From: Laccaria trichodermophora
Taxonomy: Eukaryota > Basidiomycota > Agaricomycetes > Agaricales > Hydnangiaceae
Direction: 5' to 3'
Length of the DNA stretch: 64,000 bases
Assembly: GCA_018417955.1 (NCBI GenBank)
Contig: JACTVC010000016.1
Location: 744,001-808,000 of the forward strand
Part shown: piece by piece, positions 5,830 through 60,412 of the stretch
How positions within the stretch are numbered: position 1 is the first letter of the stretch
Layout: the number at the start of each line of letters is the position of its first letter
Translations under genes and position numbers: made by a program
The notes under the pieces: model-generated
What the model saw: the letters and a program-made list of their open reading frames with translations, nothing else
Database searches by the model: none
Told to the model about the DNA's origin: nothing

Positions 5830-7170
5830 TCGGAATTTTCGGGAGAAACTGTTCATGCCGAAATGCTTTCGGAATGGTCATCATACAGGGTCAAGCCCGC
5901 AGTGACCTATTGAAACGCAGAATCCGCCCAGGTCAATGTTTGATGCTTCTCGCGACGCGAATTACTGCGCGTCAAGAATTTTGATTGTTTCCAGTATAAA
6001 CTGCGATATGCCGCAAGTCTCAAATATTCTTCAAGAAAAAAGACACGGTTGGCGGCTTACCTCGATTGCGTGGCGAATGTGAAGTAGAGAATGAGAAAGT
6101 TGAGATCTGTGAGTCGCAGTGTCAATAGATTTCAGAATTCGTGATACTCAATGATCATACCTCGGGTCACGCCTCCTTTTACAGAGATTCTGCAGTTTTT
6201 CAATGCGTGATCTGGCGGATCCGAAGAAGAGTGAGCTGCGCAGCTACTCCACCCACCGCGTGTTTGAGCAATTGCACGCAGCGGAGAATGCGCCGATTCA
6301 CAGTCCAAACTTGGTCCAAACTCTCAAAGGAGACCGAATTTGCTGCGTTCAATAACGAATCCGAACTGCAACATCCACCAATGAGTTTATGGTTCTTTGA
6401 ATAGAGTGCAAATTGCTTACCCTAAACGACGGTTCGCCCAAAGGGAGTTCTCAAGTTGTCCATGTCACTTTCACAGACTCGTTACAAAGTCTTGGATGTT
6501 GCTTGATTCCTTCAAATCGGATGCTATTTTTCAAAACCGGAGGTTATTAATCGTCTGGCGGTGTAAAGTGGCCGGCTCGCTATCAAAAATAAGCCTCGTA
6601 ACGACAGATGTTTCTGTCTTTCGGATTTCCAATGCGTTGGCTCCGGAAGCTGTCCGGCGACTCACCATCGCCCGTATATCAATCAAACAAGGAGAATTCT
6701 GTTTGCCAATGAGTGAGTTGAATTGGAGACATCGCGGGAAATGTTACCCGCTGTTGGTGTTTAAAATTTAGTGAGCCATAGCGGCGCTGCGCAGCACGGC
6801 TAGTAGAGACCCGCGTTTCACTTGAAAGTTGGTAGTAGAAAAAAAATGTAAAGAAGCCTTCGATTTCCAAGCAAAGAACCCGAAGCAACCCCTCTGTGTG
6901 AAATGTGAACCACTCCTTGAGAGTCCATGGCTTTTGGAAGTTTTGAGCGGATTTGGTCGTTCTGAACGTGCCCTCGTGACTAGTTGTTGATAGTTGTTGA
7001 ATGTCAAGGTCCCTGGCCATGACACCACGAACAATAGGGGACGGGAAGAACAACATGAGAAATGACTCATTTTGAATCAAAGTCCAAAGAAACTATTTCT
7101 CACAGTTCAAAAGAGAAGTGTTACCAGGCTATGGATACAGTTTAGGTATGTAGGGGTACAGCAAAAATAT
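5830..7170. other. Intergenic DNA, no supported gene
   Basis: Plus-strand frames around 6140-6410 (for example one starting at 6203 and rich in charged residues) look mildly protein-like but match no family and have no clear splice context. Minus frames at 6679-7080 are low-complexity Phe/Thr-rich. Nothing here is annotated with confidence. Confidence 0.35.
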
Positions 7171-7177
7171 CCTCAAA

Positions 7178-8265
7178 TCACTCCAAATCAAAGACCAACA
7201 ACTCAGCAGCTCGGTCGCCCACGTTCTCCACCTCCAAGATGGCACCCTTCTGCTTAACGTCCACATAAGCCCCGTCCCCCTCTCTCAACTCCACCTCATC
7301 CCCACCCTTGGTACTGAACTTGATACTGGCGCCGGTCGCCTGCAGCTCGTTATAACCACTCGTCTGGATAACATGCACATAGGCCTTCTTGCCCTCCAAA
7401 GACCGGCTAAGCGCCTTGCCCGTCCCAAGGATCGACGCGTAAAGGGTCAATGCGCTCTGTACCGGGGCCGGACCCTCGCCCTCCCTGGTATCCTTAACGC
7501 CATCCGCCCACGCGGGCGCTACGACCTTGGCCCACTTGTCCGTCTTATCTTCGTCGGTAAAGTGCCGAGTGAAGTACTTGGGCTGCAGGCGGGATGTGGC
7601 AGGGAGGGACCAAATCTGCAAAAAGTGGACTTGTTTGGCTCCATGGGCTTTTTCGGAGTGGGATATGCCAGTGCCAGCGGAGGTGAGTTGGAGGTCACCA
7701 CGTTTGAGGATCTCGGTATTGCCCATGGAGTCTTTGCTGAGGTTGGTAGATACGTGAGATAGATGGATACGAGAAATGAATAAAAAGACGTACTGCTCAA
7801 GCTCGCCGGCGACGACGTATGAGAAAATTTCAAACTCGCGGTGCGAGTGGGTTCCGAACCCTGTGCGGGGCGCAACTCGGTCTTCGTTGATTACGCGCAA
7901 AGGTCCAAAAAGCTCGTGCTTATGATCTTGATACCTGAAGTAACAAATTAGAATGTTGACTTCATAAAAGGAAAGGGAAAAGAAGATGCGTACATAGCAA
8001 ATGAGAAAGTGTGGAATGTTTTGAGCCAGCCGTGATCGGCGTTCCCTCGTTCTTCGCTCTTCCTGGGGGTAAATTTCAACGAACTCATGCTGTCCGCGAC
8101 AGTAGATAGATTGTTGGAAATAGCTGCGAGGCGTTGGGCCCGGAGGTTGGCTTTTGCAAGTCTGAGTAGTGAGGTCAGGTTGGGAATGAGGTTGAAGTAG
8201 ACGACGACGATTATATAGACGGGGATGAGGGCGATGTGAAAGAAAAGACGGGATTTGGGTTGCAT
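7178..8265 (-). CDS. Pirin-like bicupin protein with N-terminal membrane segment, copy A
   Basis: Coding is complement(join(7178..7736,7794..7934,7994..8265)), 323 residues, with introns of 57 and 59 nt. Residues ~9-30 form a hydrophobic segment (IALIPVYIIVVVYFNLIP), then a linker, then the pirin fold from ~residue 66. The metal ligands of pirins/YhhW are visible: THSHREFE (His120, His122) and GISHSE (His164, Glu166); GELEHKDS and the MSxGNxxxLKRGD strand pair are typical. Bacterial relatives are quercetin 2,3-dioxygenases and eukaryotic pirin is a nuclear Fe co-regulator, so the substrate is open. The membrane anchor is unusual for the family. Copy B (14543-15620) has identical exon lengths of 272, 141 and 559 nt. 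The gene lies upstream of and codirectional with the acidic-partner gene. Confidence 0.88.
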
Positions 8266-8779
8266 GACAGAGCCCTAAGACCAGGTTGTAATAAATAGGG
8301 CGGCATCGTCAGCATCCTCGAGTCAGATTTCCTCTTTTGTGTCGCGACAACCCACGTAGACACGTGCCACTCCGAAAATTCCCCTGTTGCTGGAACAATG
8401 CTTACTGAGCTCGCAGAACATGGGCGTATAGTACACCGGTAGTGGCATTTCTGTGCACTCTTAGGCCGCCTCCAAGACTAGTATTTCCCCAGGGAGGTCG
8501 ACGTAAAGAATTCGGGCCTCCGACCCAACTCCGACCGGCCAGTATGCTGCCACGCCAAATCTGCTTGTCGATTCATCGAGAAACAAGTGGGTCCGTCGTC
8601 CGCAGTGGCTGAGCGCGTGGGGTGGGAGGCGGAGGAAAAGTCAAGATGGCAGAGCAAACAAGGTTAGATAAAAGCATGGCTATTTTTGGGCTATTCATGT
8701 TACATGTACGCCAACTGTTCTGCCAGCCGCTCTGCTTTGAAAACAACAATTATACAAATCGCAACTGTCTTATGGAGGG

Positions 8780-9607
8780 CTATCGAGACTCATTCACGCC
8801 TGACACTTCCCCATTCCAAAACTTCCATCCTGCAAGGCTAGTTTGCGCGACGATTTCCTCGCTACTCAAGTCGCGTCGCTGCGGGTTTTCGAGGGTAGCG
8901 ATTGTGAACTATAAAATGTCCGTTACGTCAAGACACAAGGGCAGCTGAGTGGTAGGTACCTTGAGCAGTGGCTCGTCTTCCTCAGAGACCCTCAATCCTT
9001 TCAAGGCTTCGAGAACCTGTTCCGGCGGGTCACACAGGTACGACGTTTCCAGGTCGCTGTAACCACCCAGAAGCTGCAAGCATGCACCAGCCACGCTTGT
9101 GCTAGCCAACTCATCCGTCTCGTCGGCGTTCCAGTCAAGGTAGTCCGACAACTTCAAGCCATCGCTGATGGCTGCGACGCTACTTGAGTTGCTTAAGACA
9201 TCAAGTCCCATGCAGCGCCCCGACAAAAGAGAGGCGGCGAGAAATTCCGGTCGATCCGATGGCCCCGCTTCAATATTCGCCCGCATTCTGTCTCTGAAGT
9301 CAGCATTGAACAGCTCAGCGAATGTTGCAGCTGGTCGATCTGAGGTCCAATATGCAGTCGGTAGTGATTCGTCGGCTCTTGCATGGAGCACAACGTGGAG
9401 GATGGTGTCGACATTATGGGGACTGAAGCGGGATGCTTCGAAAAGGAAATCACCCAAGTCGCAAATGATCGCACTGTTGGGATCCTCTCGAAAGAGATTC
9501 AAGAATGGGTGGTTGGTGATCGCGACGCTATTCGTCGAGCGGAACGAAGTGCGGATGGCTTCAAGGGTGGGGTCATAGTCGTAGAGGTCTGATGCTTCTT
9601 CGGTCAT
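8780..9607 (-). CDS. Acidic cytosolic protein of unknown family, copy A (partner gene)
   Basis: Coding is complement(join(8780..8908,8960..9607)), 258 residues with one 51-nt phase-0 intron. The start at 9607 is chosen because copies B, C and D align there (MTEE/MSEE). No signal peptide or membrane segment is present. Asp and Glu are frequent, with acidic clusters (DETDE, SEEDE). Conserved blocks shared by all copies: LEAIRxSFRS, NHPFxxxFREDP, GLSDFLFEVSR, RPAATFGE, FLAASLLSGR, DGLKLSxYxEWN, TGVAGACLQLLGGY, then after the intron RRDLSSEEI and LAGWKFWNG. I do not recognise the fold; secondary structure looks mainly helical. It is divergent from the secreted lysine-rich gene at 10504, an arrangement repeated at three other places in the window. 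A protective (immunity) role is my inference. Confidence 0.75.
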
Positions 9608-10503
9608 CTTCAAGATGTGTACGTGTGCATGAAGATGATCGTGGTCAAATGTTCTTATTGTTGGATCTTACCCGATTTACTTCTCACAAAGGTGCAAGCA
9701 AAGGCGGCGCTTGCCACTCTCCCCTGAAACAAAACATGATCGCCGTTTGGAGAACGCTGAATCGGATGGCATCACAAGGACCTACTTAAGGTGAGCACCT
9801 GTGGGCGCCTGGGCGGCGCCGCCTCCGAGTCGGTTCTATCTTGGTTCTATCCTTGGCAAGTTGCCTGGCAAAGATGCGGTGTTACTATGGAGGTGTCGCG
9901 GGCCTCAATACATATTCCTCCAAAAACTCATACCAGCCCTCTTCGATCGGGTTCTTCGAAGCTCAAAATGCTCGTCATTCCGACAACCAAATTACGTCCG
10001 GGATTTGAAAAGTGGGTGTCGTGCCTGTTTTCCCTCATCCTCTACTAATTTGTATTATCTGGCGCTTGAACTCGCTTGAACCTTCGCTGGCCGGTGCCCA
10101 CATCAGGGCCAGCCGGTGAGGGCGCGACATGGGAGAGTGGAGCTTCATCGGGAAGGTTCAGCGTCTTGTATTATCGTGTCAAAGCCGTTGGTCGCCAACG
10201 AAGATGATCGGCGTTTTGCCCAACCTTCATGCTTGGTCTACCTTCGGCATATGCCTAGCGCTCAAACTTTTGTTAAAAGGTGCAAGTCAATTCCCAAATA
10301 CCCTGAGCTGGTCTCCAGACATCCTTTTTGCACGCTATCCACCCCCCGCCTTCAGCTTTAAAACCCACCCACCCCTCTCCGGAAAATTTGAAGCTGGTCT
10401 TCACGACATTTACAACTGACAATCAATTTCGAGGAATTCACAAGGCGCGCGTCTGACCGACTTATCATTTTATGAATACTTGAATTCTCACCAACAAGTA
10501 GAT
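9608..10503. promoter_or_regulatory. Divergent promoter region of pair A, with conserved ~37-bp motif
   Basis: About 0.9 kb between the partner (minus) and secreted (plus) genes. At 10190-10224 lies a motif close to GGTCTCCAACGAAGATGATCGGCGTTTTGCCCGACAT that recurs in the same place in copies B, C and D. It is followed by other shared blocks (TCTACCTTCGGCATATGCCTAGCGCTCAAA and GAAGCTGGTCTTCACGA). Conservation of this non-coding stretch across diverged copies suggests shared cis-regulation of both genes. Confidence 0.6.
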
Positions 10504-11875
10504 ATGACACGACTTCGTCGCATCCTTCCTTTCTTTTCGGCTCTATTACTACTTGCTCTCTTCTGTGATGCCCTACCCGTGCTTGAAAAGTCTGCTGCGC
10601 GGCAACTGTTCGACACTCGCAGTTACGGCCCTCCGATTCTTGGCCAACGAATCACAAGCGTACGTTCACCGTCTAATATTCCACACTTGTCTCTTTTCAC
10701 AATTGATATGTCAGGTTGCACACAATCGTCGGCCACTAGCGGGTGAGCACAGGCTTGAGGCGCGCTCATCCGAGTTCTCAGCCCCCGCTGGACGCGTGAA
10801 AAATGGGTTCAAGAACAAGACCCAAGCTCGCAAGGCGAGGAAAGCACTCGGCGAGGCCCGTCCTACGCCCAAGCCAGGTCTTGGCCATAACGGCTTGACC
10901 AAAGGTCCGGCCTGTATCAACAGCAAGAGGAACAGATGCAAAGAAGGGGGTACCTCATTAGCGGCAGCGAAGAATGCCAAACAACGACCTGCTGGTTTGT
11001 CTCTTACTGTAAAGAAAGAGAAGAAGGTCGCGGATCGGAAGGGTAATCGACAGATGGCTGTAAAAATCAAGCACCAGAACTTCGTCAAGCAACAAAACGT
11101 CGGCCAGCCGAACCAGAAGCTTCAGCAATGGAAGATTGACCCGAAGACTCATGTCGCTCAACGTGCCAAAACTGCTCAATCAATCAAGAATAGTTGGAAC
11201 GGGGGGGTCCGAGAAGCTTATTACAAGAAGTTTGAGAAGACGGGCCCCTCGTTTTCTGCCAAAAGCCAACGACTCACAGAATCAGCACTTCTTAAGGGAA
11301 AGGATCCCAAGAAAGAGCAGTATAAAATAGCCAAGGCTGCATACGACGCTTCGATCAAGAGTGGGACCTTTCCTGGCCGCAAGGCAATCTTCAGTACTCC
11401 CCAAGATGGTCAGTTTTTTGTACTGCTCTAGGGTTCGGTCCGAAAATAAATGACAAATTCTGCAGGGGCTTACAAGGGCAAGGATATTCGGCAAGCTCTT
11501 TTCAACGCTCACTTACACGATCAGCCTGGTAAAAAGGTTGGCCACACCGTCGACGGCAAGCCCGAGAGATCCAACGACCGTAAACACCCCAAAGAGTTTC
11601 ACAACAAACCTAATCGTGGGCACGGTCAAACTGTTCCCCTGCCTTGGATGAGTGATCGAGGGAGGGAGTATACCATTATGCGTGATCATGCTTTGGGCCA
11701 TCATGGAGTGAGCCCAAACCCGACTGCTACGCGGCTCATCACCCAAAAACGAAATGGTGTCCACAAGTTCGAAGGGGTTGTTTCTCACCCAGGACAGGGC
11801 AATGATCACGTCCAGGTTTCCCAGAATAAAGAGGATTGGAAGTATAATCTTGGGCCTTTACCTTGGGTGAAATGA
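10504..11875 (+). CDS. Secreted lysine-rich protein with possible ribotoxin/RNase T1-like C-terminal domain, copy A
   Basis: Coding is join(10504..10659,10715..11408,11466..11875), 419 residues; introns are 55 and 57 nt. Residues 1-~25 are a signal peptide (hydrophobic FFSALLLLALFC), followed by a propeptide-like stretch. Residues ~65-280 are strongly basic (many KK, KN, KxR). The last exon (284-419) is the best-conserved part between copies A and B. It carries GREY (Glu351), TATRLITQ (Arg373) and GVVSHPG (His391), with His301 and His310 upstream. Order and spacing (Glu-22-Arg-18-His) resemble the catalytic Glu/Arg/His of the fungal RNase T1/ribotoxin fold. No disulfide pattern like classical ribotoxins is seen, and the resemblance is by eye. 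It is divergent from the acidic protein at 8780-9607. Confidence 0.7.
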
Positions 11876-12712
11876 GTAAATCGTTCTCGTTGCATGTACC
11901 AGTCAAATAGTTACAATAGCGAGGGTTTGATGATGTTTTGACAATTCTGAAAATTATGTGTCAAGCCTTTCGGCACTGCAGCTTGATAGGATGGGGCGCC
12001 TCCGGCTTCGCCGCTCTTGTCACAACGCCATTTATGATAAATACAAACTTACATAAACTGCTCAATTAACGTAACCTGCAGCCTGCAGGAACTTTCTGTA
12101 AAACCGGGCCACTTGGCACCATCAATTGCTCGTGATCAACTCGTGATGTCGGCTGCGCCTCGCAGCTCATAAGAGCCCACTTGGGCTCATCAATTCTGGA
12201 CCTTTAATTGGTGAATGGCAATCGAACCTAGCGAAACCTGGCTACGCGAAGTTGATGAGGGTCTTGTAATTTGTTGAGAATCGCAAGAAGATTTCTTTGT
12301 TTGGCCAGGCTTGGTGGATTGTTTATTCCTAAGCAAATCATGAGCACCTCTCGTCAACTCAAGCCATCAATGGGATTCTCTATTTTGTTTCGTCATGAAA
12401 CAAGATTTCCTACTGGGGATGTTCTATGATTTTCCGCGACGCAAACAAGACACATATTATTCACTAATCACAAGATTAGGAAGTTCTTGAAACGTTGACA
12501 AATAGTATGCAAATAGTACCCTTAACCTCACCATTCACGGCCATCTCTTCGTCATCATAAGACTTTCGTTTCAAAGTGTTCCTTCCATTTCTATCAGACT
12601 CCGGAAATCGAATTCGATTTAGGAACACAGCAGAAAGCGGTAGCCCGTGCTCCCTAATATATTATATCACAGATCTCACATTGGTTAGACTCCTAACCTA
12701 GATTTTGCGCCT
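11876..12712. other. Intergenic DNA between secreted gene A and the PARG-like gene
   Basis: AT-rich, with no frame of interest. A small perfect palindrome (CCTGCAGCCTGCAGG) occurs near 12076. The PARG gene's leader presumably starts within the last 200 bp. Confidence 0.4.
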
Positions 12713-13728
12713 ATGACTCCAAGGTTCATCTCCAGTATTCTTCGACGTCCCAAGGCTACATTCGAAAGGGCACTCACGGAGCGTCAGCAAGAACTGGCCC
12801 AGCGGCAGACGATAGCGCAGGATACCCTTGATCGCACCCATGCCATCATATCTAAGCACCAGGATCAAGGTGCTACCGCTGACTCAAGCTTCATTTCTGG
12901 GGACGAGCTGCTGCCGCTCGACCAAGATGCGTGTCCGAAGCTAATGTGGGGAGGGATGACGGTCTTGGGCTCGGATTCCTTTACTGCTGCACGGGATATC
13001 ATGAAGGACAACCCAGAAGCCCAGGGGAAAACAACTGTTTTGAATCTGGCCAGTGATCAACATCCCGGGGGTGGATGGATCCATAGTCTTTCGAAGACTC
13101 AGGTGGGTAGACATTTGCTTGTTTCAATGATAGCTCAATGACGTCATCTTCTTTGGATTAGGAGGAAGCACTTTGTTACTCATCCACCCTATACGAGACT
13201 TTGAAAGAGTCGTATTACCCATGGCCGAACCTCGGCCCAAATTCAGTCGCGGGGATTTATTCTCCTGGGGTTGTAATCTTCAAAGACGATCTTGACCACA
13301 ACTGCGTGGACCTTCCGGAGGCAGAGAGGCGCGTCGTCTCGGTCATCACCGTTGCTGCCCCTCGCGGGCCAAAACTCACAGAAGATGAGCTGGAGTTTAA
13401 GAATGAATCAGACCTGGAAGACTTGAAGGGGAAAATCAGGCTGGTTTATCGTATGGCTGGACATTATAAGCAGACATATCTCGTTCTTGGTAGGTTTTAC
13501 CTCTATGACCACGGGTAAGACGCCGTATTCATCTTAAATCAAGGTGCTATGGGGTGCGGTGCATACCGTTGCCCCCCTCGGTTAGTTGCAGAGCAGATGA
13601 AGTCGATTCTCCTCGAATCAGAATTTCAGGGATGGTTCTCGCAAGTTGTGTTCGCTGTTTATGGTCGCTCGGGACCTGCCGCCGCCAACTTTCAGATATT
13701 TTCGAAGGTCATGAGGTCTAGAGGGTGA
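12713..13728 (+). CDS. Microbial-type poly(ADP-ribose) glycohydrolase (DUF2263) protein
   Basis: Coding is join(12713..13102,13162..13489,13544..13728), 300 residues; introns are 59 and 54 nt. The catalytic signature of bacterial-type PARG (macrodomain-related, TIGR02452/DUF2263) is present: HPGGGW (Gly119-121), then after a short loop Gln130-Glu131-Glu132, with the QEE split by intron 1. Other family features are VLNLASDQHPGG, the AGIYSPGVVIFKDD strand, RRVVSVITVAAPRGP, and the C-terminal GAMGCGAYRCPP with FxxVxFAVYG. Known relatives hydrolyse ADP-ribose from modified proteins or chains. N-terminal residues 15-60 form a helical region common in fungal members. It is the only intact copy here; two antisense fragments lie at 735-1115 and 4811-5065. 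Its neighbours are the two pirin/secreted-protein clusters. Confidence 0.9.
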
Positions 13729-14542
13729 GAAACGTTGTAATAGTGCTGCTGTTACTCGCCACTATGAGCTATGGGAACGTCACGAGGATAAGCTAGATTT
13801 GCGAGTGCACAACTTGAACCTCTAACACATCACAAATGCAGACACATGTTTCACAGAAATTAAATGACTCAAGTATGAAAAAGATTATAAACGTTAGATC
13901 CAAACTGTGATATTCCAATCCGGTACCTCAACTCTAAAACGTGTGTAAGTATCAACCAAAATTCACAGCATGGCTCCTTCATTTCTATCTCGCCCATCTC
14001 CAAATACTTAAGGTCGTGCAAATATAGGAGCCTGCGATTTCGACTTGATGGAGGCATCTCTCCGATCTGCTATATCAAGTTTCAACCCGTTTGCCCCGCC
14101 ATCCTCACCCTTTCCCTCCTTTTCCCATGCCTCCTACCTCATGCTCTCAGTCACTGTGGGCGACGGACCGACTCAAATTTTAATGAGACGGAATAAAATG
14201 CAAGAACCTCATCAAGGAGGTTTGGCTTTCTCGTCGTTCAGGCAAAGCTGGCTGGAGCCTGGAGGCCCGAAGTTTTTGCGGTCGACCTTATTGGGGAAGA
14301 TTGGTATCAGTACTATGAGTGTGCAGAAACGTTATTAGCTGCTATTTGGTAGATTAGACTTGGATAATGTAGACGCATGCTTGAAGCTTTTCTCAGTAAC
14401 AAGGGTGAGCACGTGCCTACGTGAGTTGTAGCGACACAAAAGAGGAAGCTGACTTCAAATCAACTTCAAATCTTGCTTCCATCATTTCGAGGATGCTGAC
14501 GATGCCACCCTATGTATTACAGTCCAGTCTTGGGGCTCTGTC
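13729..14542. other. Intergenic DNA; pirin promoter duplication at its end
   Basis: No supported gene: a 97-codon frame at 14045 has no domain and no copy elsewhere. The last ~150 bp (14400-14542) share blocks (GCACGTG near CCTACGTG, GCGACACAAAAGAGGAA, GCTCTGTCATGCAACC) with the upstream region of pirin copy A, so the duplicated unit includes the promoter. Confidence 0.45.
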
Positions 14543-15620
14543 ATGCAACCCAAATCCCGTCTTTTCTTTCACATCGCTCTCATCCCCGTCTATATAATCG
14601 TCGTCGTCTACCTCAACCTCATTCCCAACCTGGCCGCACTATTCAGACTTGCTAAAGCCAACCTTCGTGCCCAACACCTCGAAGCTATTTCGAAGAATCT
14701 ATCTACTGTCGCGGACAGTATGAGTTCGTTGAAATTTACCCCCAGGAAGAGCGAAGAACGAGGGAACGCCGATCACGGCTGGCTCAAAGCTTTCCACACC
14801 TTCTCATTTGCTACGTAGGCATTTCTTTTTTTCCCTTTATCAATCAAAAATCTAATTCTTTACATTAGGTATCAAGATCATAAGCACGAGCTCTTTGGAC
14901 CTCTGCGCGTAATCAACGAAGACCGAATTGCGCCCCGCACAGGGTTCGGAACCCATTCGCATCGCGAGTTCGAAATTTTCTCATACATTGTCTCCGGAGA
15001 AGTTGAACAGTACGTAGTTTTTTCCATCTACCCCCCACCCTATCTAATCCAATCACCTCAGCAAAGACTCCATGGGCAACACCGAGATCCTCAAACGCGG
15101 TGACGTCCAACTCACCTCAGCTGGCACTGGTATATCCCATTCCGAAAAAGCACGTGGAGGCAATCAAGTCCACCTTTTGCAGATTTGGTCCCTCCCTGCC
15201 ACAGCCCGTCTTCAGCCCAAGTATTTCACTCGGCACTTTAGTGACGAAGAGAAGACGGACAAGTGGGCCAAGATAGTCGCGCCCGTATGGGCGGATGGTG
15301 TTAAGGATACTAGGGAGGGCGAGGGTCCAGCCCCGGTACAGAGCGCGTTGACTCTTTACGCGTCGATCCTTGGGACGGGAAATGCGCTCAGCCGGCCTCT
15401 GGAGGGTAAGAAGGCCTATGTGCATGTTATCCAGAGGAGTGGTTATAACGAGCGGCAGGCGACTGGTGCCAGCGTCAAGTTTAGCACCAAGGGCGGGGAT
15501 GAGGTGGAGTTGAGAGAGGGGGACGGGGCCTACGTGGACGTTAAGAAGAAGGGTGCCGTCTTGGAGGTAGAGAACGTGGGCGACCGAGTTGCTGAGCTTG
15601 TGGTCTTTGATTTGGAATGA
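14543..15620 (+). CDS. Pirin-like bicupin protein with N-terminal membrane segment, copy B
   Basis: Coding is join(14543..14814,14869..15009,15062..15620), 323 residues, with the same exon lengths as copy A and introns of 54 and 52 nt. It has the same N-terminal hydrophobic anchor and the same metal-binding motifs: the HSHREFE pair in exon 2, and ISHSE in exon 3. Differences from copy A are mostly conservative (IVSGEVE for VVAGELE; ARGGN for AHGAK). Both copies are therefore open and under constraint. It converges with the secreted-protein gene B, whose stop is 322 bp away. The pirin copies are in opposite orientation, part of an inverted duplication around the PARG-like gene. Confidence 0.88.
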
Positions 15621-15941
15621 TTTATGAAAATTCTCGCTGTACCTCCTAATACATGAATTGTACTGCTAGCCTTGTAACGAACCCTCTTTTACTCGCAAGA
15701 GTACGCGTGCTTATAATAAGTTCGGTCTTTGGTCTTTGGTCTCTGATTTAGACTCTATGTACCTGAGTGAGCTCAAGCCTTTTCCTTCAAGCTTCATACA
15801 TTACACCGGGCACCGCGAGGCTTAACGAAAGAAGACAAAACTGATAAGTATCGACACCGGCACCACACAATGTTAGATTTGAACTGATAAATCTTGGAAC
15901 ACTGGTTCGATGATATCACTAGTACTGACATCGAGATTAAT

Positions 15942-17328
15942 TTACTTGATTGGCCAAGGCTTAAGATGATACGCCCAATCAACTTTATCATGAAGAACCT
16001 CGACGTGATCCTTAGAGTTCTTCGCTGGATGAGAAACAACGCCCTCGAACTTATGAACACCATTTTGTTCTTGGGTGATGAGCCGCGTAGCGGTCGGGTT
16101 TGGGCTTATCCCGTGATGGCCCAAAGCATGATCTGGCATCATGGTATACTCCCTGCCTTTCCCCGTCATCCAAGGCAGTGGAACAGTCTTACCCTGCCCT
16201 TGATTAGCAGCGTTTTGAAATACTTTGGGATGTTTCCGGTTATCGGACTTCTCGACCTTGCCGTCCACAGTGTGGCCAACCTTTTTACCAGGTTGATCAT
16301 GTAAATGCGCGGTGAAAAGAGCTTGTCGAACATCCTTGCCCTTGTAAACTCCTGCAAATCATATCGTATATTTAAAAAAACCTGAACCTTAGAACGTTGC
16401 AAAAGACTTACCATCTAGGGGCGTCTTGAAGGTTGCCTTGCGATCGGGAAAACTTCCAGTCTTTATCGAAGCATCATATGCAGCTTTAGCCAATTTATAC
16501 TGCTCTCTCTTGGGATCTTTTCCCTTAAGAAGCACCGATTCTGCGAGTCGTTGGCTCTTGGCAGCAAAGGAAGGGCCCGTCTTCTCAAATTTCTTGTAGT
16601 AAGCCTTTCGGATCTTCTTGTTCCCGTTCCAACTCTTCTTGATTTCTTTAGCAGTTTTGGCACGTTGAGCGACATGAGTCTTCGGGTCAATCTTCCATGG
16701 CTGAAGCTTCTGGTTCGGCTGGCCGACGTTTTGCTTTTTAACGAAGTTCTGGTGCTTGATTTTGACAGCCATCTGTCGATTACCCTTCCGATCCGCGACC
16801 TTCTTCTCTTTCTTTGCAGTAAGAGACAAGGCAACAGGTCGTTGTTTGGCGTTCTTCGCCACCGCTAATGAGGTGGCACCCCCTTCTTTGCATTTGTTCC
16901 TCTTGCCGTTGATACAGGCCGGACCTTTGGTCAAGTCGTTATGGTCAAAACCTGGCTTGGGCGTAGGACGGGCCTCGCCGAGTGCTTTCCTCGCCTTGCG
17001 AGCTTGGGTCTTGTTTTTGAACCCCTTTTTCAGGCGTCCGGCGGGGGCTGAGAACTCGGGTGTGCGCGCCTCAAGCCTGCCCTCACCGGGCAGTGATTGG
17101 CGGTTGAATACGACCTGATGAATAAATCATGAGCAGGCACAACTGCAGAACAATGGGTGAGCGTACGTTTGTGATTGGTTGGCCAAAGGCTGGAGGGGTA
17201 TGACTGTGAGTGTCGAACAATTCCCGTGCAGTGGACCTACGCTTTTCTAGCACGGGTCTGGCATTACAGCAAAGCCCAAATAGTAGCAGAGTCGAAAAGG
17301 AAAGAAAGATCTGATTGAAATGTGTCAT
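15942..17328 (-). CDS. Secreted lysine-rich protein with possible ribotoxin/RNase T1-like C-terminal domain, copy B
   Basis: Coding is complement(join(15942..16351,16412..17114,17167..17328)), 424 residues; introns are 60 and 52 nt. The last exon is exactly the length of copy A's (410 nt). The signal peptide is IFLSFSTLLLFGLCCNA. The basic middle region has small indels relative to copy A, and the proposed Glu (GREY), Arg (TATR) and His (VSHP) are all retained. A TATATAA box on the minus strand at 17349-17355 is only ~20 bp upstream of the ATG, so the leader would be very short unless another promoter is used. It is divergent from the acidic partner B (17847-18628), with 518 bp between start codons. 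Confidence 0.7.
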
Positions 17329-17531
17329 GTCTGTTGTGGGTGAGGGTTTTTATATAACGAACAGTCGGGGATCGTGAAGGCCAGCTTCAAAGAATTCTAA
17401 AGAAGAGGGGTGGTGAGGTTGAAAACGGGGCATGAATGTCTGGAGACCAGCCCAAGGTATCCGCCAATTGACCTGCACCTTTTAACAAAAATTTGAGCGC
17501 CAGGCATACGCCGAAGGTAGACTGAACATGC

Positions 17532-17610
17532 ATGTCGGGCAAAACGCCGATCATCTTTGTTGTGGGAGACCATGTGTCAGGCAAAACGCCGATCACCTTC
17601 GTTGGAGACC
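17532..17610 (-). promoter_or_regulatory. Two copies of the ~37-bp shared motif, divergent promoter B
   Basis: Two adjacent direct copies (17532-17571 and 17574-17610) of the motif found once in promoter A, both reading on the minus strand toward the secreted gene as in the other clusters. The core is GATGATCGGCGTTTTGCC. Doubling here and in copy D, against single units in A and C, suggests expansion of a regulatory element. Confidence 0.55.
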
Positions 17611-17846
17611 AATGGACGAAGATACAAGACGTTGGACAGTCCCAATTGAGGTTCTCGAGGCAGGTTACCAAAGATACCCAGAACCGACTCGGGTCCACCA
17701 AGTGTGCCATGTTGCTAAGTCGAACCAAGTGCTCAAAGCACTAATATCCTCAAAGGGGCAAGTACAGCCTTTTCGAGAAGAATGACAATCGGCTCGGGCA
17801 TTCAGAACACTTAACCACGATCACCTTTGTGCACACAACTTGAAGT

Positions 17847-18628
17847 ATGACCGAAGACCACTCCGACGACGACCCCGTCCTTGAAGCCATCCGCTCCTCG
17901 TTCCGTTCGACGGATGCCGCCGCGACCACCAATCACCCATTCCTTGAATTCTTTCGAGAGGATCCCAATATTGCGACCATTTGCGGCCTGAGTGACTTCC
18001 TTTTCGAAGTATCGCGCTCCAATCCCCGCGACATCGACAGCGTTCTCCTCGTTGCGCGCTACGCAGAAGCCGATGAATCACTACCGACTGTGTATTGGTC
18101 CCGAGAGCGACCAGCTGCAACGTTTGGTGAAGTATTCTTTGTTGACTTTGGGGATAAAGTGGGAGCGTATCTTGACGACGGGCCATCAAACCGACAAACA
18201 TTCCTCGCTGCCTCTCTTTTGTCGGGTCGATCCAAGGGGCTTCATGTCCTTAGCAGCCCAACTAACGCCGCAGCCATCACCGATGGCCTGAAGTTGTCGA
18301 ATTACTTCGAGTGGAACGATGATATAGCTAGCACAGGCGTGGCTGGCGCATGTCTGCAGCTTTTGGGTGGTTACAGAGACCTTCCTCACCCACCGGAAAA
18401 GGTTCTCGAAGCCTTGAAAAGCTCGAGCGTTACCAGGGAAGATGAGCCAGTACTCAAGGTACCTTCATGTTCCATTCGGCTGCACTTGTTTCTTTGATGT
18501 TGATGTGACAAACATTTTTGTAGTTCACAACAGCCATCCTTGAAAGCCCCCAGCGACGCGACTTGAGTAGTGAGGAAATCCTCGCTGAAACTAGCCTTGC
18601 AGGGTGGAAGTTCTGGAATGGGGAATAA
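17847..18628 (+). CDS. Acidic cytosolic protein of unknown family, copy B (partner gene)
   Basis: Coding is join(17847..18458,18524..18628), 238 residues with a 65-nt phase-0 intron. It starts MTEDHSDDDP and keeps all blocks of copy A: FRSTDAAATTNHPFLEFF, LSDFLFEVSR, RPAATFGE, LLSGRSKGL, GVAGACLQLLGGY, and in the last exon RRDLSSEEI and AGWKFWNG. It ends 20 residues earlier than copy A because a TAA follows the NGE. The acidic N-terminus (eight acidic residues in the first 15) contrasts with the lysine-rich product of the divergent neighbour. There is no signal peptide and no recognised domain. The 3' flank carries a tandem duplication of its own last-exon tail. Confidence 0.75.
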
Positions 18629-31011: not shown

Positions 31012-33767
31012 TCATGGTCTCATTGGGGCAAGCCACACCTCCGCCGCCTCAAATTGGTCAATCAACTCGCGCAGAACGGCTCCTTCGGAATGAAGCTGCC
31101 TCATCGCTGTCAGAGCCTGCAGGGAAAAGGCACACACACACACACGACCCATTTCAGTTATATCAATTAACAATAAGAAAAAAACCGTGCCGCGTACCAC
31201 GTCCCAGAACCTGAAACCCCTCTCTACCTCCAGCTTGGGATACTTGACACCCGTGAACGTTTCCTCGCAAATTTCGAGGGCCAACGCTTTGGCCTCCTTA
31301 ACGCCCTCAGCATTAGGATCCCGAACCCTAGTCCGGTTGTTAATGTGAGTCAGGGCATCAAGATACACCTTGGCGAGAACGCCGAATCCGGTGTTAACCT
31401 CAGTTTGGAACGGAAGTGAGAGTGTGATGTCTAACAAATCATCCCGTGCTCGTCGAGCATCATTTCGGAGGAGCATATTCAGCGAAGTGACTTCCAGCAG
31501 GGTCCTAAGCGCCCGTGTGAGAGACCGTACAAAGGAGTTGAACACCAACAGCTCTCGAGACAGAGGCGCGGACCAAGGTTGCGGCTACATGAAAAAGTTG
31601 CATGAGTAACCGTTGCTTATACTGAAGCCCGTACAACCCACCTTGAAATTGAGCGGCACAATACTAAGCACCCGCATCACAAGGAGCATTGATGACTTTT
31701 CATCATCTAGAAGAGCCGAATTGTCAACACAAGTTCAATTCTCGTAAGAGAATGATTGAAACGCACCTGTCCCAAAGCTCGGCCCACCACTGAAGGCTCG
31801 GCCAGACCAGAGATGGCCATGCATTACTCCTGCCCTGACGAGCTCAAGGAACAAGTAAAGGGGGTCTTGGAACTTGTCATTGACGCGGGCCAGCTTAATC
31901 GCCTGGTTCATCGCACGCGCCAGCGGAGAATGCGTATGCGAGTTCAACAAAAATCTGTTTGCAATTGTCAGTCTATTTCGGGAGCAGTTAAATATAAACC
32001 CACCCTCGTAGTTCCAAGAAACGCCAGATGACGTTCGCCACAACCTCATCCTTCTTTTCGAGGGGGATAGGGGGGCTGCTCTTGACCTTGGTTCGCGCGG
32101 CCAGGCGTTCCGTTGCCGTCGCACCCAAACACAAAGCAAAGTCGATGGTGGATGACTGAGACCGGTTGAAGGTCAGCTAACCACTCATGGACGATTCTTC
32201 TCAAGAAAAGAGACTTACGTTTTGCCTCCTCAATTCCTCCTCCACGACCGAATAACCAACGTTCCAGCCAGCGACCCGTTCGGCAAGCTGAGCCGTCTGC
32301 GGAGAGTTGTGCTGGACGGGTTTTTGGTTGTGTCCAGTAGGCTGTTCAAACCAAAAGAAGCCCTGCACTTTCTTGTTGGCCCAAAAGTTGAAAGCAACGC
32401 TGCTGATGAGGGCTAGCGCCGTAGCTCTTGGCCCAGTTTGGCCATCGGTGATCACCTCCTTGACGAAGCGTTTGTACTCGGTAGTTTCGCCGTTGTCCAA
32501 AGGGGGGTTCTCAATGATCTGTCCGCTCGTCAGCCAGACGAGAGCTTGGGGTCCTAACAGCCCACGAGAAAGATAAAAGTATATCTCATCCGGCAACCTA
32601 TTGGTGAATATCTCGTGGAGATCCTGCGGAATGTCTGCAGCGGTCGGATGGTGAGGATGGTGGTTTGGGTGGCTGTGGGTAGCGGGAGAGGTGATGGCCA
32701 GTGGGAGTGGTAAAACCGTGCCTTCCGATGAGAGAATGAGGGAGTATTTGATCATGGAACGTGTCCGAGCATAGTGGTCCGAGTATTGGATGGATTTTAC
32801 GGCGGGATGTTCGGCGAAAGCGGACACAGCGGCGTGTCCCGACTTGTAGTATTTGACCATGTCGACTGTGGCTTTGAGTGCTTGTTCATGGATAGTTGGT
32901 GGGAAAGGCGGCGAGTGATCAAAGCCAACGAGGATACCAATGTCGAGGAACTGATCCTCCGATACTCCTAGGTCTTGTAGGAAAGTCCGCTTTGAGGTAT
33001 ACTGGAAGGAGGGGCTGGCCGAGGTTAGGTCGAGGGAGGTGATGAGCTTGTCGACGCTGGGGTAGAGGAGGGTATCCGTTGGCCCGTAGATGGCATGTAT
33101 GTACGACTTGGAGTGGCGTTGGAGGTAGATTAACTGAAGGGGGCGAGCAACAGGTCAGAATATATCACAAATTCGCAGAGTAATCGACCGCATACCTGAG
33201 CCCAAGCGACATAGGGAGCAATGATGAAATCCACGTTCCTATGCCGGAAAACCCTAAGCACCATCCTCCAAAGGTCCCACTGGGCGAAACTACTCCGCCC
33301 CTCAAACAATTTTGTTGCGGCCTCCTCCTGACCAGCCTCGTATTTTGCCCACGCGTCACGTCGGTCTCTGCACGCCTCTGCATGCTCCAGGTGGTGGTTC
33401 TGCTTCCACCGCTTGTTAGGGATAAGGCCAGGGAAAACGAAAACGGGTTTAATCCGCAGTTTTTCGAGGGCGCGCAGGTCAGATTCGATGCGCTGTGTGA
33501 GCGCCAAAGGCAAACCGCCAGTGGCAGCGAGCAAGGGCTCCCTCGAAGGAGGGTTGTCCGTCAGTTGTTGGAGGTAATAGGACGCATCGATACCAAGTCG
33601 GGAATCTGAGAGTACGGAGAGCGGAAGCGTTTGCAGGTGTTTTCGTTCAAAGAGGTAGTCTGTATCACAGTAAAAAAGTCAGCGACGTTGTCTTTCTGGG
33701 TTGACTGAGCAAACCAGATGCCATGTCATGGTTCACGACTCTCACTTTCAAGATGCTTGATAGGCAT
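31012..33767 (-). CDS. MKT1: Mkt1 family post-transcriptional regulator (XPG-like nuclease fold)
   Basis: Coding is complement(join(31012..31116,31198..31584,31642..31706,31767..31954,32004..32155,32219..33133,33196..33659,33746..33767)), 765 residues in eight exons; the first is 22 nt. The N-terminus (PIKHLENYLFERK, then SRLGIDASYYLQQL) and KLRIKPVFVFPGL, WDLWRMVLRVFRHRNVDFIIAPYVAWAQ and YGPTDTLLYP follow the XPG-N/XPG-I order of Mkt1, which keeps the flap-nuclease fold but not all acidic active-site residues. The C-terminal part has the conserved FLxxHTHSPLARAMNQA segment and the LVFNSFVRSLTRALR helices. In yeast Mkt1 binds Pbp1 and acts on mRNA translation and stability in the cytoplasm. 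Intron 7 contains a (CA)n run near 31133. Confidence 0.93.
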
Positions 33768-55000: not shown

Positions 55001-55250
55001 CCGGAGACGATGGAAACGAGTTGACAATATGGCGAGCAAGATCCAAGAACGACAGTCAGACTGCGCTCGGAGGGCATCGCGGATGAGGCAGCGTGATTGG
55101 GAGGAGAAGGAGAGAAGGGATGGCGGGTATAGTGGTAGGAGATACTTGACAGGTGATATCTTCTGCGTTTGAGGCATCGACAACTAACGTATATGTCTTC
55201 GAGACCGCCAAAATAGTCTTATTCTCCTGTCCCACCCCCAACGAAAAACC
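52100..55250. other. Gene-poor region
   Basis: Frames of up to 169 codons (52138-52647 minus) look like translated leader sequence. Around 54230-54570 on minus there are plausible splice signals and short protein-like pieces, but no consistent gene. Confidence 0.35.
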
Positions 55251-55259
55251 TCAAACCTC

Positions 55260-55700
55260 GCTTTCGTCACGTTCCTCACTAGTTTGTGCGATCGTTGAGG
55301 TGCTCCAATTCGATTGCGGCATCGAGCTAGGACTTGAGGAGGGTGAGATGTCGGATGTCGTCTTGCAACGCTTGGTTCAGAGATTCTCCAGTCCGTTCGC
55401 ACCGCAAATCCACCCCACTCCTAAGAGACCTGAGAGGGAGTAACATCATCGGCTACGCGAGGATGACCCTCTACCCCACTGACGTCGGTTCCAATCAAAA
55501 GAGATCGGAGTCCGAGGCTCGTCGACCTTACAATCTCATAAAAAGACTGCCAACAAAGAGAACTGGATGTCAGCTTGAAGAACGCAAACTGCGGAAATGC
55601 TAGAGCGCAGTTGGGTCTGCATGAAGATTCCGGGGTGTACAAGAGGCGGGATAGGGTCCAGTTTGGGTTAAGGAAGGAGAGTTTTTGAGCCATCGCTGGG
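55260..55700 (-). pseudogene. Decayed unassigned coding sequence
   Basis: Minus strand. An ATG near 55695 (MAQKLSFLNPNWTL) starts an open stretch to 55421. About 80 bp further on, a coiled-coil-like piece reads ESLNQALQDDIRHLTLLKS, a TAG, then LDAAIELEHLNDRT in one frame. Splice-like AG sites lie between. I could not assign a family; an in-frame stop in otherwise good sequence points to a dead gene. Confidence 0.3.
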
Positions 55701-55807
55701 ATGGTGATGGAGGAAGAGGTGGGGGTGGAGGATTGAATGAGGGCGGAAATGGGGTGGAGGGTAGTCCTTCGCCTTCTGCTCGCATATGTTTGGCGTAAGA
55801 AGTGCAA

Positions 55808-56737
55808 ATTGTGGAGGCCGCAGTTGTGAGAATTGGACGGCTGCTAAGTAATGGGGTGGAAGACGGATATCGATTCAAGGGGACAGAATGTTGCGTAGGT
55901 GCTCGGCTGCCTGCCCAACGTTTCATTTCCTTTCAGATAATGCCTTCGGCAAGATTCGATTCTGGTCGCTGGAGGGTCTGTTGTTTCCTGTCAGAGAAGT
56001 GGCTTGTTACTCAAACTATTAGATTATTGGTGAGAGTAGAGTAGAGTGGTGAAGAAGTAGGTCTCACAGCGAAAGTTTTCGGTGGAGGTTTTGATCTTGT
56101 TTAGGCGAACGTTCCTGACACTTGTAAACCCCTACTTCAATCGCTGGCAACCAGTGTTTTGTGATGCCGGCTGCGCATCGTAAGTCTCCTTGGTGATTAC
56201 TCTGGTGGGATAAACATGTAGTCCTCAATTGCGAGACGACGTTGATGAAAACGCTTTCCAGAACGGTTCGAAGCAACTTACCGAATGCCTCCACCGTCCA
56301 CTCATGAACCTGCACAATCCCGAAGACTCCAGTGGCTCGTGGCGCCAATTGTGCGTCTCAACTCGCGTCCGTATCCACTCAATGAGTGGTCAGTGCAGTT
56401 GACTCGCGACGCGCGGCCAAGTCCGTACTTAGTGGATTACCACGAATCGCTGGCGAGACGTTGCAAAATTTTGCCATCTGAAATTTGAAATGAGATAAGT
56501 ACTCGGGTTTTCTTCATGACTTAGTGGCTCCGTCACCCGCAGTGTCTGAGCGCATGAGGGGGAACATGGTGGAGGATAAAGCCAAAGGGTGCTGGGTGAT
56601 GGCGGTCACCGGAGCCAGTAAAGGTGAAATATTTCTCGCAAACAACGTTTTATACAAATCGCGACTGTCTTCTCAAGATTCTTCTCAACTGCTGGTATCG
56701 AGACCAGGGACCATACTACACCTGGCACTTCCCTATT
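55808..56737. other. Intergenic DNA; shared 3' flank of partner genes at the end
   Basis: No gene. From ~56520 the sequence (GTGTCTGAGCGCATGAGG, TTTATACAAATCGCGACTGTCTT) matches the 3' flank of partner copy A (8600-8775), marking the edge of the duplicated unit. Confidence 0.5.
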
Positions 56738-57551
56738 TCATTCCCCGGGCCCATAACCATTCCAAAACTTCCACCCTGCAAGGGTAGTTTCCGCCAGGAT
56801 TTCCTCACTAGTACTCAAGTCGCGTCTCAGCGGATCTTCAAGGGTGTCTATTGTGAACTGTAAAAGACGCTTGTTACAGGAACAAGTGCAGCACATTGAT
56901 GCGAGGCATACCATTTGCAGAGGCTCATCCTCCTCAGAGACGCTCGATCTCTTCAAGGCTTCGAGAGCGTTTCCTGGCGGGTCACGCAGATACGAGGGCA
57001 GGCCACTGTAACCACCCAGAAGCTGCAGGCATGCACCAGCCACTCCTGTGCTACCTATCTTACCCTCCCATTCGAAGATGTTCGACAACATGATCAGGCC
57101 ATCATTCAAGGCTATAAAGATTTCTGAGCTGCCCATGACATCAAGTCCGATATCGACCAGCTAAAAGAGAGGCGCCAAGGAATGTTCGTCGATCCGATGG
57201 CCCCTCTTCAAGATACCCCCGTAATTTGTCCCTGAAGTCAACGTTGAATACTTCACCAAACGTTGTAGCTGGTCGCTCTCGGGTCCAGTACACAGTCGGT
57301 AGTGTGTCATCGGCTTTTGCGTGGCGCGCAACGTGGAGAATGGCGTCGACGTTGCGAGGATTGGAGCGCGACACTTCGAACAGGAAGTCAGTCAGGCCGC
57401 AAATGATCGAAATCTTGGGATCCAGTCGAAGGAGATCAAAGAATGGATGGTTGGCGGTTCCGACGGTATTTATCGAGCGGAATGAGGAGCGGACGGCTTC
57501 AAGGACGGGGTCGTCGTCGTAGAGCTCGAGGTTTAAGGCTTCCTCGCTCAT
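56738..57551 (-). pseudogene. Acidic partner protein, copy C, frameshifted
   Basis: Starts MSEEALNLELYDDDP at 57551 and follows copies A, B and D up to LGASLLAGR at ~57150. There two bases appear to be missing and the frame ends. The rest of the protein (GLDVMGSS..., STGVAGACLQLLGGY, RRDLSTSEEI, LAGWKFWNG) continues in another frame to a TGA at 56738. A GT-AG intron (56858-56911) is preserved at the same place as in the other copies. Only the frameshift disables it, so the loss is recent or the base is wrong. The divergent secreted gene on its other side is a first-exon stub. Confidence 0.7.
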
Positions 57552-57831
57552 ACTTAAAGTCGTGACCGCGCAGGTATGGTGAACCGGTGATCTGAATGTT
57601 GGATCTCAACCGACTGACTTCTCACAAAAAGGGTACTTTCCACTTTCCCTTTGCTACAAATCGTGGTCGGGGAACGATCGGCCTAACAGGAACATTAGAT
57701 CTGCCACACCTGCCTGTGGGCGACTCGGAGAGTTTACTTCCTTGTATTTTCAGGTCATTGGAACTCTTCGGGACCGTCACTGACAATGTGCAACGCCTTT
57801 TATTTTCCTGTCATAGCAGCGAAGAACCATC

Positions 57832-57868
57832 AGTCCCCATTGAAGGTGATCGACATCTTGCCCAACCT
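57832..57868 (+). promoter_or_regulatory. Shared ~37-bp motif, copy C promoter
   Basis: One diverged unit (CCCCATTGAAGGTGATCGACATCTTGCCC) at the same place between partner C and the secreted-gene remnant as in the other pairs. It is preceded by the shared GTGCAACGCCTT...TCCTGTCATAGC block. Confidence 0.5.
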
Positions 57869-58118
57869 ACATCCTCAATCTACCTTTAATGTATGCCTGG
57901 TGCTCAAAATTTCGTGAGATGGTGCAGCTCAATTAGCGGATACCTTGGGATGGTCTCTAAACATTCTTAAAAGTGCGCGACATTCATCCCTTGCCTCCAA
58001 AACTCACGCACCCCTCTTTAGAAATTTCGAAGCTGGTCTTCACGATCCAGTTCACGACATCCACAAGGTATGCGATATCCGACAGACTTTTCGTTTTAAA
58101 TACTCACCGCGAATAGAC

Positions 58119-58168
58119 ATAAAACGTTTTGATCGGGTCTTCTTTTCCTTTTCGACTCTGCTACCATA
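58119..58168 (+). pseudogene. Remnant of secreted-gene first exon, copy C
   Basis: Downstream of the shared promoter block and the GCGAATAGACAT context, the signal-peptide start of the secreted gene is recognisable. However, the start codon reads ATA, the frame stops within the signal peptide, and the sequence passes directly into the 3' flank of partner copy D. The rest of the gene is deleted. Confidence 0.6.
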
Positions 58169-58254
58169 AAACTATGACAGCTTTGCCACACGCCACTCTG
58201 GAGTCTGTATCTGCAAACAACATTTTGACAACAATTTATACAAATCACGACTGT

Positions 58255-59074
58255 TTACGGAGGATGCTGTCGAGCCTCTACGCCTGACATTTCCCCATTC
58301 CAGAACTTCCACCCTGGAAGGCTAGTTTCTGCGAGGATTTCCTCACTACGAAGGTCGCGTCGTTGCGGGCTTTCAAGGATGGCTGTTGTGAACTACAAAA
58401 TGTTTGAGTCAACATCAAAAAAACAAGTGCCACTGAATGAAAGGCACCTTGAGCAGCGGCTCATCTTCTCTGGATACGCTCGATCTTCTCAAGGCTTCGA
58501 GAATCTTTTCCGGTGGGCCAGGCGGGTCTCTGTAACCACCCAGAAGCTGTAGGCATGCGCCAGCCACGCCTGTGGTAGCAATATCGTCGTTCCATTCAAA
58601 GTAATTCGACAACTTCAGGCCATCGGTGATGGCTGCGGTGTTACATGGGCTGCTTAGGACATGAAGCCCCTTGGATCGACCGGATAAAAAAGAGGCGGCG
58701 AGGAATGTTCGTCGGTCCGATGGCCCCTCTTCAAGATACGCTCGCACTTTATCCCCAAAGTCAACAAAGAATTCTTCACCAAACGTTGCATCTGGTCGCT
58801 CTCGAGACCAATACACAGTCGGTAGTGTTTCATCGGCTTTTGCGCAACACGCAACGTGGAGAACGGTGTCGATGTCGCGGGGACTGGAGCGCGATACTTC
58901 AAAAAGGAAGTCACTCAGGCCGCAAATGATCGAAATCTTGGGATCCTCTCGAAAGAGATCAAAGAATGGATGGTTGGCGGTCCCTACGGTATTTATCGAG
59001 CGGAATGAGGAGCGGACGGCCTCAAGGACGGGGTCGTCGTCGTAGAGCTCGAGGTCTAAGGCTTCCTCGCTCAT
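58255..59074 (-). CDS. Acidic cytosolic protein of unknown family, copy D (partner gene)
   Basis: Coding is complement(join(58255..58392,58448..59074)), 254 residues with a 55-nt phase-0 intron. Starts MSEEALDLELYDDDP; all conserved blocks are present (NHPFFDLFREDP, LSDFLFEVSRSSPRDID, TGVAGACLQLLGGY, RRDLRSEEI, LPGWKFWNG). The coding frame is uninterrupted even though its divergent secreted partner is reduced to one exon. The protein-level similarity to B and C is higher than to A. Same acidic, signal-less character as the other copies. Confidence 0.75.
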
Positions 59075-59297
59075 ACTTAAAGTTGTGACCACGAAGGTAT
59101 GGTGAACCAGTGATCTGAGTGTTAGATTTTGACCGACTTACTTTTCACAAAAAGGGTACTGCCCACTTTGCCCTTTGCTACACAACGTGATCGGGGAATG
59201 AGTGTGCAACGCCTTGTATTCTCCTGTCATAGCCATCAGTCCCCATTGAAGGTGATCGGCATTCTGTCACCGCCCAACGTCCTGTATTTTTTTCTAT

Positions 59298-59373
59298 TGG
59301 TTTTCAACGAAAATGATCGGCGTTTTGCCCGACAATTGGTCTCTAACGAGGATGATCGACGTTTTGCTCGACA
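59298..59373 (+). promoter_or_regulatory. Two shared ~37-bp motifs, copy D promoter
   Basis: Units at 59298-59334 and 59337-59373 (core GATGATCGNCGTTTTGC), plus a poorer third unit near 59240. A TATAAAAAA-like box at ~59529 is about 25 bp from the remnant's ATG, as in copy B. Confidence 0.5.
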
Positions 59374-59554
59374 TACATGCTCAGTGTACTTTTGGTGTAT
59401 GCCTGGCGCTCAAGTTTTTGTTCAGACGTGCAGCTCAATTCGCGAACACCTTGGGCTACTAGCCTCCAAACGCCTGTTCTTCACGGCGATATTCACAAGA
59501 TATGCGATATCCAACCAACTTTTCGTTTTATAAAAAAGCTCACCGCGAATAGAC

Positions 59555-59767
59555 ATGAAACGTTTTGATTGGGTCTTTTTTTCCCTTTCAATGCTGCTAC
59601 TATTTGGTTTTCTCTGTAATGTCAGACCCGTTCCGGAAAAGTGTGATTCCACTGTGCTTTATACAAAGAAGGGCGCAAGAAGTCCCAAGCGCCGTGCGCC
59701 ATCCGTCTATTTTTTCCATCTGGCTGCCATCGTCATAATCGGTGAATACTCCCTGCAGCCGAGGTGA
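59555..59767 (+). pseudogene. Truncated secreted gene, first exon only, copy D
   Basis: An ATG with an intact signal peptide (FFSLSMLLLFGFLCNVRP) and the following PVxEK match the first exons of copies A and B. Then similarity ends and an unrelated 40-residue tail runs to a stop at 59767. The basic middle and the conserved C-terminal exon are absent. The next feature is the 3' end of the PBI2-like gene. Confidence 0.65.
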
Positions 59768-59952
59768 AGTGGGGCGCCTTTCCGGAGGCAAAGTGAAAGA
59801 GTACCCAATTCAACATATTTTTGATGCATACATTTCATTAAAATTCTTGCGAATACACAAAGTATTTCAAAGGCGCATAGTGAAATATGGATGCAAGACG
59901 TTGATCTAATTACATAGTGGCAAGTACATTGACTGAGCTGATCTATCACTAT

Positions 59953-60412
59953 TTACTGGGTAGTGACGATGCAATCGGGTTCTAAATTGAGGTTAGTCGC
60001 GCATACCGACCTGTTATAAGCCTGGATGCACAAACCAATATAGGCGATCACACCGCTTGTGAGAGATTGGAAAGATTGGAGAGACTCCGGAGTCAATGTG
60101 GCCGCAAATCCCTGCGAGAAGCTATCAGCATCTTCCTTGGAGGTTGTTGGACACTTGACTTACATTGAGGACTGAATCGTAGCGGTGGGTGACCTCGCCG
60201 CCTACAAGTGCCAGTGTGTAGGAGATCGTATTTGATCTTGAAATGATTGTAGCTGACGCACCACTGGTGTTAACTTCATCAACGTATTTAGTGATCTCAT
60301 CTTGGGTGACTTCTGGTTTGAAAACAACGATGAATCTTCCAGCTAGAAAGCGAGGAGGGCATTATCAGATCGCGACTTGGTGTGTGATAGAGCAACAAGA
60401 CAAACCCGACAT
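59953..60412 (-). CDS. Proteinase B inhibitor (I9 propeptide-like), PBI2 type
   Basis: Coding is complement(join(59953..59981,60036..60111,60164..60201,60262..60342,60406..60412)), only 76 residues in five exons; the first coding exon is 7 nt. Introns are 54, 52, 60 and 63 nt. The spliced protein has the inhibitor_I9 pattern: GRFIVVFK near the start, a helix (VTQDEITKYVDEV), GGEVTHRYDSVLNGFAATL, a second helix (PESLQSFQSL), and EPDCIVTTQ at the C-terminus. Yeast Pbi2 inhibits vacuolar proteinase B and aids vacuole fusion; the family is the stand-alone form of the subtilisin propeptide fold. Leaving the 60-nt intron (60202-60261) in would also be open but inserts 20 residues into the domain, so splicing is preferred. 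A TATATAA box lies ~75 bp upstream. Confidence 0.9.

Follow-up and report, generated by a model that had tools for sequence, protein, structure and literature searches.

How do fungi that secrete ribosome-destroying RNases avoid harming themselves? A linked candidate protection gene addresses this question in a window of 64,000 nucleotides (the whole stretch of Laccaria trichodermophora DNA that was analyzed). In this window a gene for a lysine-rich, probably exported protein (the secreted gene) is arranged divergently with a gene whose product is acidic (the acidic gene), and the first-pass annotation had read the pair as a toxin/self-immunity module.

Divergent pairs and their neighbors

Table 1. 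Predicted genes, remnants and shared intergenic regions of the window
Feature	Position	Strand	Description	Basis
Secreted gene, copy A	10504-10659, 10715-11408, 11466-11875	+	419 aa	splice signals and homology
Secreted gene, copy B	17328-17167, 17114-16412, 16351-15942	-	424 aa	splice signals and homology
Acidic gene, copy A	9607-8960, 8908-8780	-	258 aa	splice signals and homology
Acidic gene, copy B	17847-18458, 18524-18628	+	238 aa	splice signals and homology
Acidic gene, copy C	56740..57551	-	frameshifted inside exon 1	homology
Acidic gene, copy D	59074-58448, 58392-58255	-	254 aa, intact	splice signals and homology
Pair A shared intergenic region	9608..10503		one exact 17-mer ATGATCGGCGTTTTGCC at 10204	
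Pair B shared intergenic region	17329..17846		17-mer at 17538 (exact) and 17580 (1 mismatch)	
Secreted-gene remnant facing acidic C	57843..58167	+	promoter and exon 1 scrap, no start codon	
Secreted-gene remnant facing acidic D	59283..59656	+	promoter and about 34 first codons	
Pirin-like gene, left copy	7120..8321	-		likeness to right copy
Pirin-like gene, right copy	14487..15678	+		Pfam Pirin, E 1e-9
Microbial-type PARG gene	12716-13728	+	between the duplicated blocks	PF10021, E 3.2e-18

All gene models were predicted from splice signals and homology. Sequence and gene models confirmed the two intact divergent pairs (A and B) of the first-pass annotation and also its statement that exon borders are kept: the secreted gene has three exons with intron phases 0 and 1 and the acidic gene two exons with phase 0, equally in both copies. 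The six introns of these two pairs are 51-65 nt long.

The intergenic DNA of pair B was used to search the genome and, among the best-scored candidates, matched only the places of pairs A to D. The 17-mer ATGATCGGCGTTTTGCC gave 17 matches genome-wide at up to two mismatches, five in pairs A, B and D and 12 elsewhere; all four matches with at most one mismatch fall in pairs A, B and D, and each of the 12 outside them carries two. No 17-mer was found in pair C at up to three mismatches. Gene order is divergent at all four promoter copies of the genome, a secreted gene or its remnant faces an acidic gene in every case (4/4), and four of the five acidic genes have such a gene or remnant opposite them. 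The four pairs descend from one shared ancestor. The fifth acidic copy, at C12:1267383-1268125, is broken, no secreted gene was found beside it, and by eye it is nearer to the P0020/P0028 subgroup.

The secreted gene is intact at only two places in the 59 Mb, 77-contig assembly, in which the window is C8:744001-808000. Its exon 1 peptide had three genome matches (the two intact genes and one remnant), a genome search with P0004 recovered just the two known genes, and no further paralogs with different C-termini, as in a polymorphic set, were found in the genome. Near acidic copy D, secreted-gene exons 2 and 3 had no match in 55001-61500. The secreted gene was lost in two of the four pairs, of which three acidic genes are intact; of the two acidic genes that face remnants, D survives and C is frameshifted.

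The two pirin-like copies share 88.2% nucleotide identity over 1204 columns and lie in inverted orientation. In the left block the pirin 5' end points toward the acidic gene, and in the right block the 3' end points toward the secreted gene, so the pair remained together as a block although its arrangement with respect to pirin was altered. Elsewhere in the window, frames with MKT1_N and XPG_N matches (32204-33678, minus strand) probably form an MKT1-like gene.

The two predicted proteins

The secreted proteins have a pI of 10.6 (copy A) and 10.3 (copy B) and a net charge of about +52 at pH 7 in both copies. Exon 2 encodes 15.5% and 18.7% lysine in the two copies, in agreement with the lysine-rich middle described earlier. 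A hydrophobic N-terminal stretch is present in the secreted protein and absent from the acidic protein: the 12-residue Kyte-Doolittle maximum near the N-terminus was 2.72 (A) and 2.12 (B), in contrast to maxima of 0.93, 0.78 and 0.53 in acidic A, B and D. This difference agrees with the signal-like N-terminus that had been assigned to the secreted protein only, and from its sequence the protein is probably exported. In copy B the stretch is followed by a KR dibasic site, which we take to be Kex2-like.

The RNase T1-like domain of secreted copy A begins at about residue 271. Alignment with a T1-type RNase profile (hhalign) gave P 1.7e-5 and a probability of 78%, and none of 600 shuffles reached the score. 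Residues E351, R373 and H391 are in register with the catalytic Glu, Arg and His of T1-type RNases, presumably Glu58, Arg77 and His92 of RNase T1, and K326 and H324 occupy what we take to be the His40 and Tyr38 places; all are invariant in nine aligned rows. The relatives were drawn from a protein search scoring the best 8000 candidates, and the alignment omits 9 of the 16 (P0005-P0013), in which the predicted protein stops short of exon 3 or departs from its reading frame. A weak structure model, obtained for the full-length single protein, leans toward the T1-type fold. Judged from these features, the C-terminal domain looks like an RNA-cutting enzyme of the T1 type. It resembles RNase T1/N1/U2 (PF00545) in the profile alignment and the Glu/Arg/His register, and differs in the lack of a Pfam PF00545 match (0/9 aligned rows at E up to 10), the Lys at the His40 place and the long basic region before the domain. 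The genome has three PF00545 RNase matches above the cut-off, all within about 5.3 kb at C10:710564-715870 and away from the pairs.

Other searches were negative or weak. Pfam gave nothing for all four proteins and NCBIfam nothing for the two of them that were searched; a PDB sequence search gave no match for the secreted protein and weak, chance-like matches only for the acidic protein, as did PDB searches with both family profiles. For relatives of the RNase domain, 30 stretches in viral_contigs and 44 in genome_contigs fitted a pattern and none was confirmed. A region search with P0015, one of the distant relatives P0014-P0016, recovered, among 106 candidates, itself and P0014 alone, and is considered insensitive since even P0016 was missed.

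The same domain could belong to an RNase-dead, RNA-binding effector with an unrelated neighbor. The RALPH effectors of powdery mildew are secreted T1-fold proteins and occur among the VIA matches listed for the secreted-protein model, but they lack the catalytic triad according to the excerpted text of PMC6464244, whereas Glu, Arg and His are kept in the nine aligned rows here, which makes a RALPH-like protein very improbable.

The acidic proteins have a pI of 4.3 and 4.5 and a net charge of -25 and -18 at pH 7 (copies A and B), as expected from the earlier description of an acidic partner. A protein search yielded 14 matches, two of them from L. amethystina. The predicted fold of P0020, a relative 61% identical to acidic copy A, is of the MIF4G type (HEAT) and all-helical save for two 2-residue strands; its structural neighbors, among the matches listed, are translation and RNA-processing factors, and barstar is not among them. 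Neither Pfam MIF4G (PF02854) nor the Barstar Pfam family matched any of 16 acidic-family members. Descent from eIF4G by sequence is not supported, since hhalign of the family against eIF4G-type domains (two tried) scored 11.3, below the shuffle mean of 13.9, and 127 of 150 shuffles reached that score. The acidic protein shares no detectable sequence similarity with the MIF4G domains of eIF4G, CWC22, CBP80, NOT1, PAIP1 and UPF2, and it is unlike known MIF4G domains in being free-standing, small and very acidic. Elsewhere in the genome, MIF4G matches occur at four sites in a 55 kb stretch (C7:1202345-1256869), and an eIF4G-like match lies on C77; two domains of this type were compared with the acidic protein and showed no sequence likeness to it.

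The first-pass annotation had held that unrelated housekeeping folds together with no confident interface would speak against a toxin-immunity pair, and this objection applies by half: one of the two folds, the predicted MIF4G-type fold of the partner, is of that kind. In an alternative explanation the secreted RNase is an effector with an antimicrobial or symbiotic role, and its promoter also serves a MIF4G-fold protein of translation or RNA handling, the two being perhaps co-expressed without binding and self-protection being achieved by secretion alone. The structural neighbors of the acidic model fit this explanation, and producers of ribotoxins are thought to be guarded by a signal sequence and compartments, as the consulted excerpt of PMC5331450 has it. 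We nevertheless consider it somewhat unlikely, given the strong opposite charges of the two proteins, the lack of a sequence link from the acidic protein to eIF4G or Pfam MIF4G, and the retention of the pair despite its changed order relative to pirin.

History of the pairs

Copies A and B share 77% protein identity in the secreted gene (dN/dS 0.133/0.361) and 68% in the acidic gene (dN/dS 0.189/0.453). Divergence is uneven along the secreted gene: codons 70-209 have dS values of 0.085 and 0.12, codons 210-279 a value of 0.65, and the codons from 280 on (the RNase part) values of 0.57 and 0.45. Within aligned codons 77-166, 39 consecutive fourfold sites are identical, a run reached in 4 of 10,000 permutations, and the identical tract spans about 10790-11060 in copy A and 16770-17040 in copy B. 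Such a pattern resembles the effect of gene conversion on the basic middle region, with the RNase domain and the partner staying diverged. Gene conversion is perhaps also why the whole-protein tree unites secreted copies A and B; when only the RNase domain is compared, copy A shares 77.7% identity with P0002 and 72.3% with copy B.

A second species, L. amethystina, carries both families and is the source of all named relatives of the two proteins, which would place the genome in or near Laccaria. In the acidic tree copy A clusters with P0017 of this species to the exclusion of B and D (100/99 support). The A and B lineages therefore seem to predate the species split, and from these sequences the pairs seem to have stayed together since the two lineages separated. 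Checking whether the families co-occur in other genomes, as had been proposed, gave a divided result. Of the contigs above 10 kb in the match lists, two of four appear to hold both families and two only one (37,805, secreted; 92,346, acidic). P0002 and P0022 of L. amethystina, both on contigs of 99,643, and P0007, P0008, P0012 and P0024, all on contigs of 291,923, are in each case inferred to lie on one contig; because it is deduced from equal contig sizes, and for two of four long contigs, linkage in other genomes is only suggested.

These data bear on whether the genes are chance neighbors carried along by local duplication. One ancestral pair could have yielded all four pairs of the genome, and the orphan broken copy on C12 and the two single-family contigs would fit, but the apparent age of the A and B lineages, with pairs together since, and the recognizably conserved intergenic DNA, found at pairs only among the best-scored candidates, make this quite unlikely. 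A selfish poison-antidote element (a meiotic or nuclear killer), which is not a weapon and spreads as loss of the antidote harms, is also unlikely. Local multiplication, the loss of the poison from two of four copies while three of four antidotes are intact, and the several lineages seen in both families among the matches are in line with such an element; the signal-like N-terminus and dibasic site indicate secretion instead, and all copies bar the broken one on C12 lie inside one 64 kb window. For chromosomal killer systems in general, the genetics has rarely been established, as stated in the part of PMC10427833 available to us.

A candidate protector and known systems

A secreted RNase with a linked protector fits best because of the kept catalytic-type residues, the opposite charges, the lasting linkage and the loss of the enzyme with one of two protectors surviving. 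The toxin/self-immunity module of the first-pass annotation stood in part, through the T1-like profile alignment, the divergent linkage (4/4) and the presence of both families in a second species. What we infer is that the protein is secreted, has RNase activity and harms other cells, and that its partner binds it and protects the producer, and the MIF4G fold could equally mean translation or RNA handling, so we give a secreted T1-type RNase with a linked cytosolic MIF4G-fold protector a probability of only about 0.4.

The secreted gene would encode a pre-pro-protein with an N-terminal hydrophobic signal and, in many members, a Kex2-type site, in which a very basic middle region precedes a C-terminal T1-type RNase that would cut RNA with Glu, Arg and His. 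The divergent acidic gene would encode a MIF4G-fold protein of the cytosol; as an acidic helical solenoid it would bind the basic enzyme, and may shield the producer from RNase that was not secreted or that returns from clonal neighbors, much as barstar acts on barnase, with another scaffold. The back-to-back pairing suggests a poison kept with its antidote. A basidiomycete chromosomal system of this kind, in which a free-standing MIF4G-fold antidote neutralizes a secreted toxin of the RNase T1 type that has a basic middle region, is conceivable though doubtful. If true, it would be an antidote made from a translation-factor scaffold, and no earlier case of self-protection by a MIF4G-type fold is known to us. 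Among the open-licence papers searched, the listed titles and abstract beginnings described no pairing of a T1-type RNase and a MIF4G-fold protein, which does not imply absence from print. With the linked candidate gene and its predicted fold, self-protection can be tested on just two proteins of small size.

In Bacillus, barnase is a basic secreted RNase and barstar its acidic cytosolic inhibitor. By analogy, the present pair would combine a basic secreted RNase from that superfamily and an acidic partner in the cytosol, although this partner is predicted to be all-helical and MIF4G-like. The secreted gene is also somewhat like bacterial polymorphic toxins, whose parts for delivery and for toxicity evolve separately, in that its middle appears homogenized by gene conversion while its RNase domain and the partner diverge. 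The portion of PMC3482391 consulted proposes that bacterial toxin domains serve fungi as weapons, and it lists HEAT-repeat immunity proteins of bacteria.

Fungal ribotoxins (the alpha-sarcin group) carry a T1-like fold. They are extracellular RNases, and the excerpted text of PMC5331450 ascribes protection to secretion and compartments and names no linked protein; the present system would share the fungal extracellular RNase and differs in its linked candidate protection gene. An RNase toxin and a linked immunity gene are described together for fungi in PMC4431711, in the anticodon nuclease systems of yeasts (PaORF4, KlORF3 and DrORF5, with immunity proteins). They reside on cytoplasmic virus-like elements, whereas the present pair lies on a basidiomycete chromosome and would combine a T1-like RNase with a MIF4G-fold partner.
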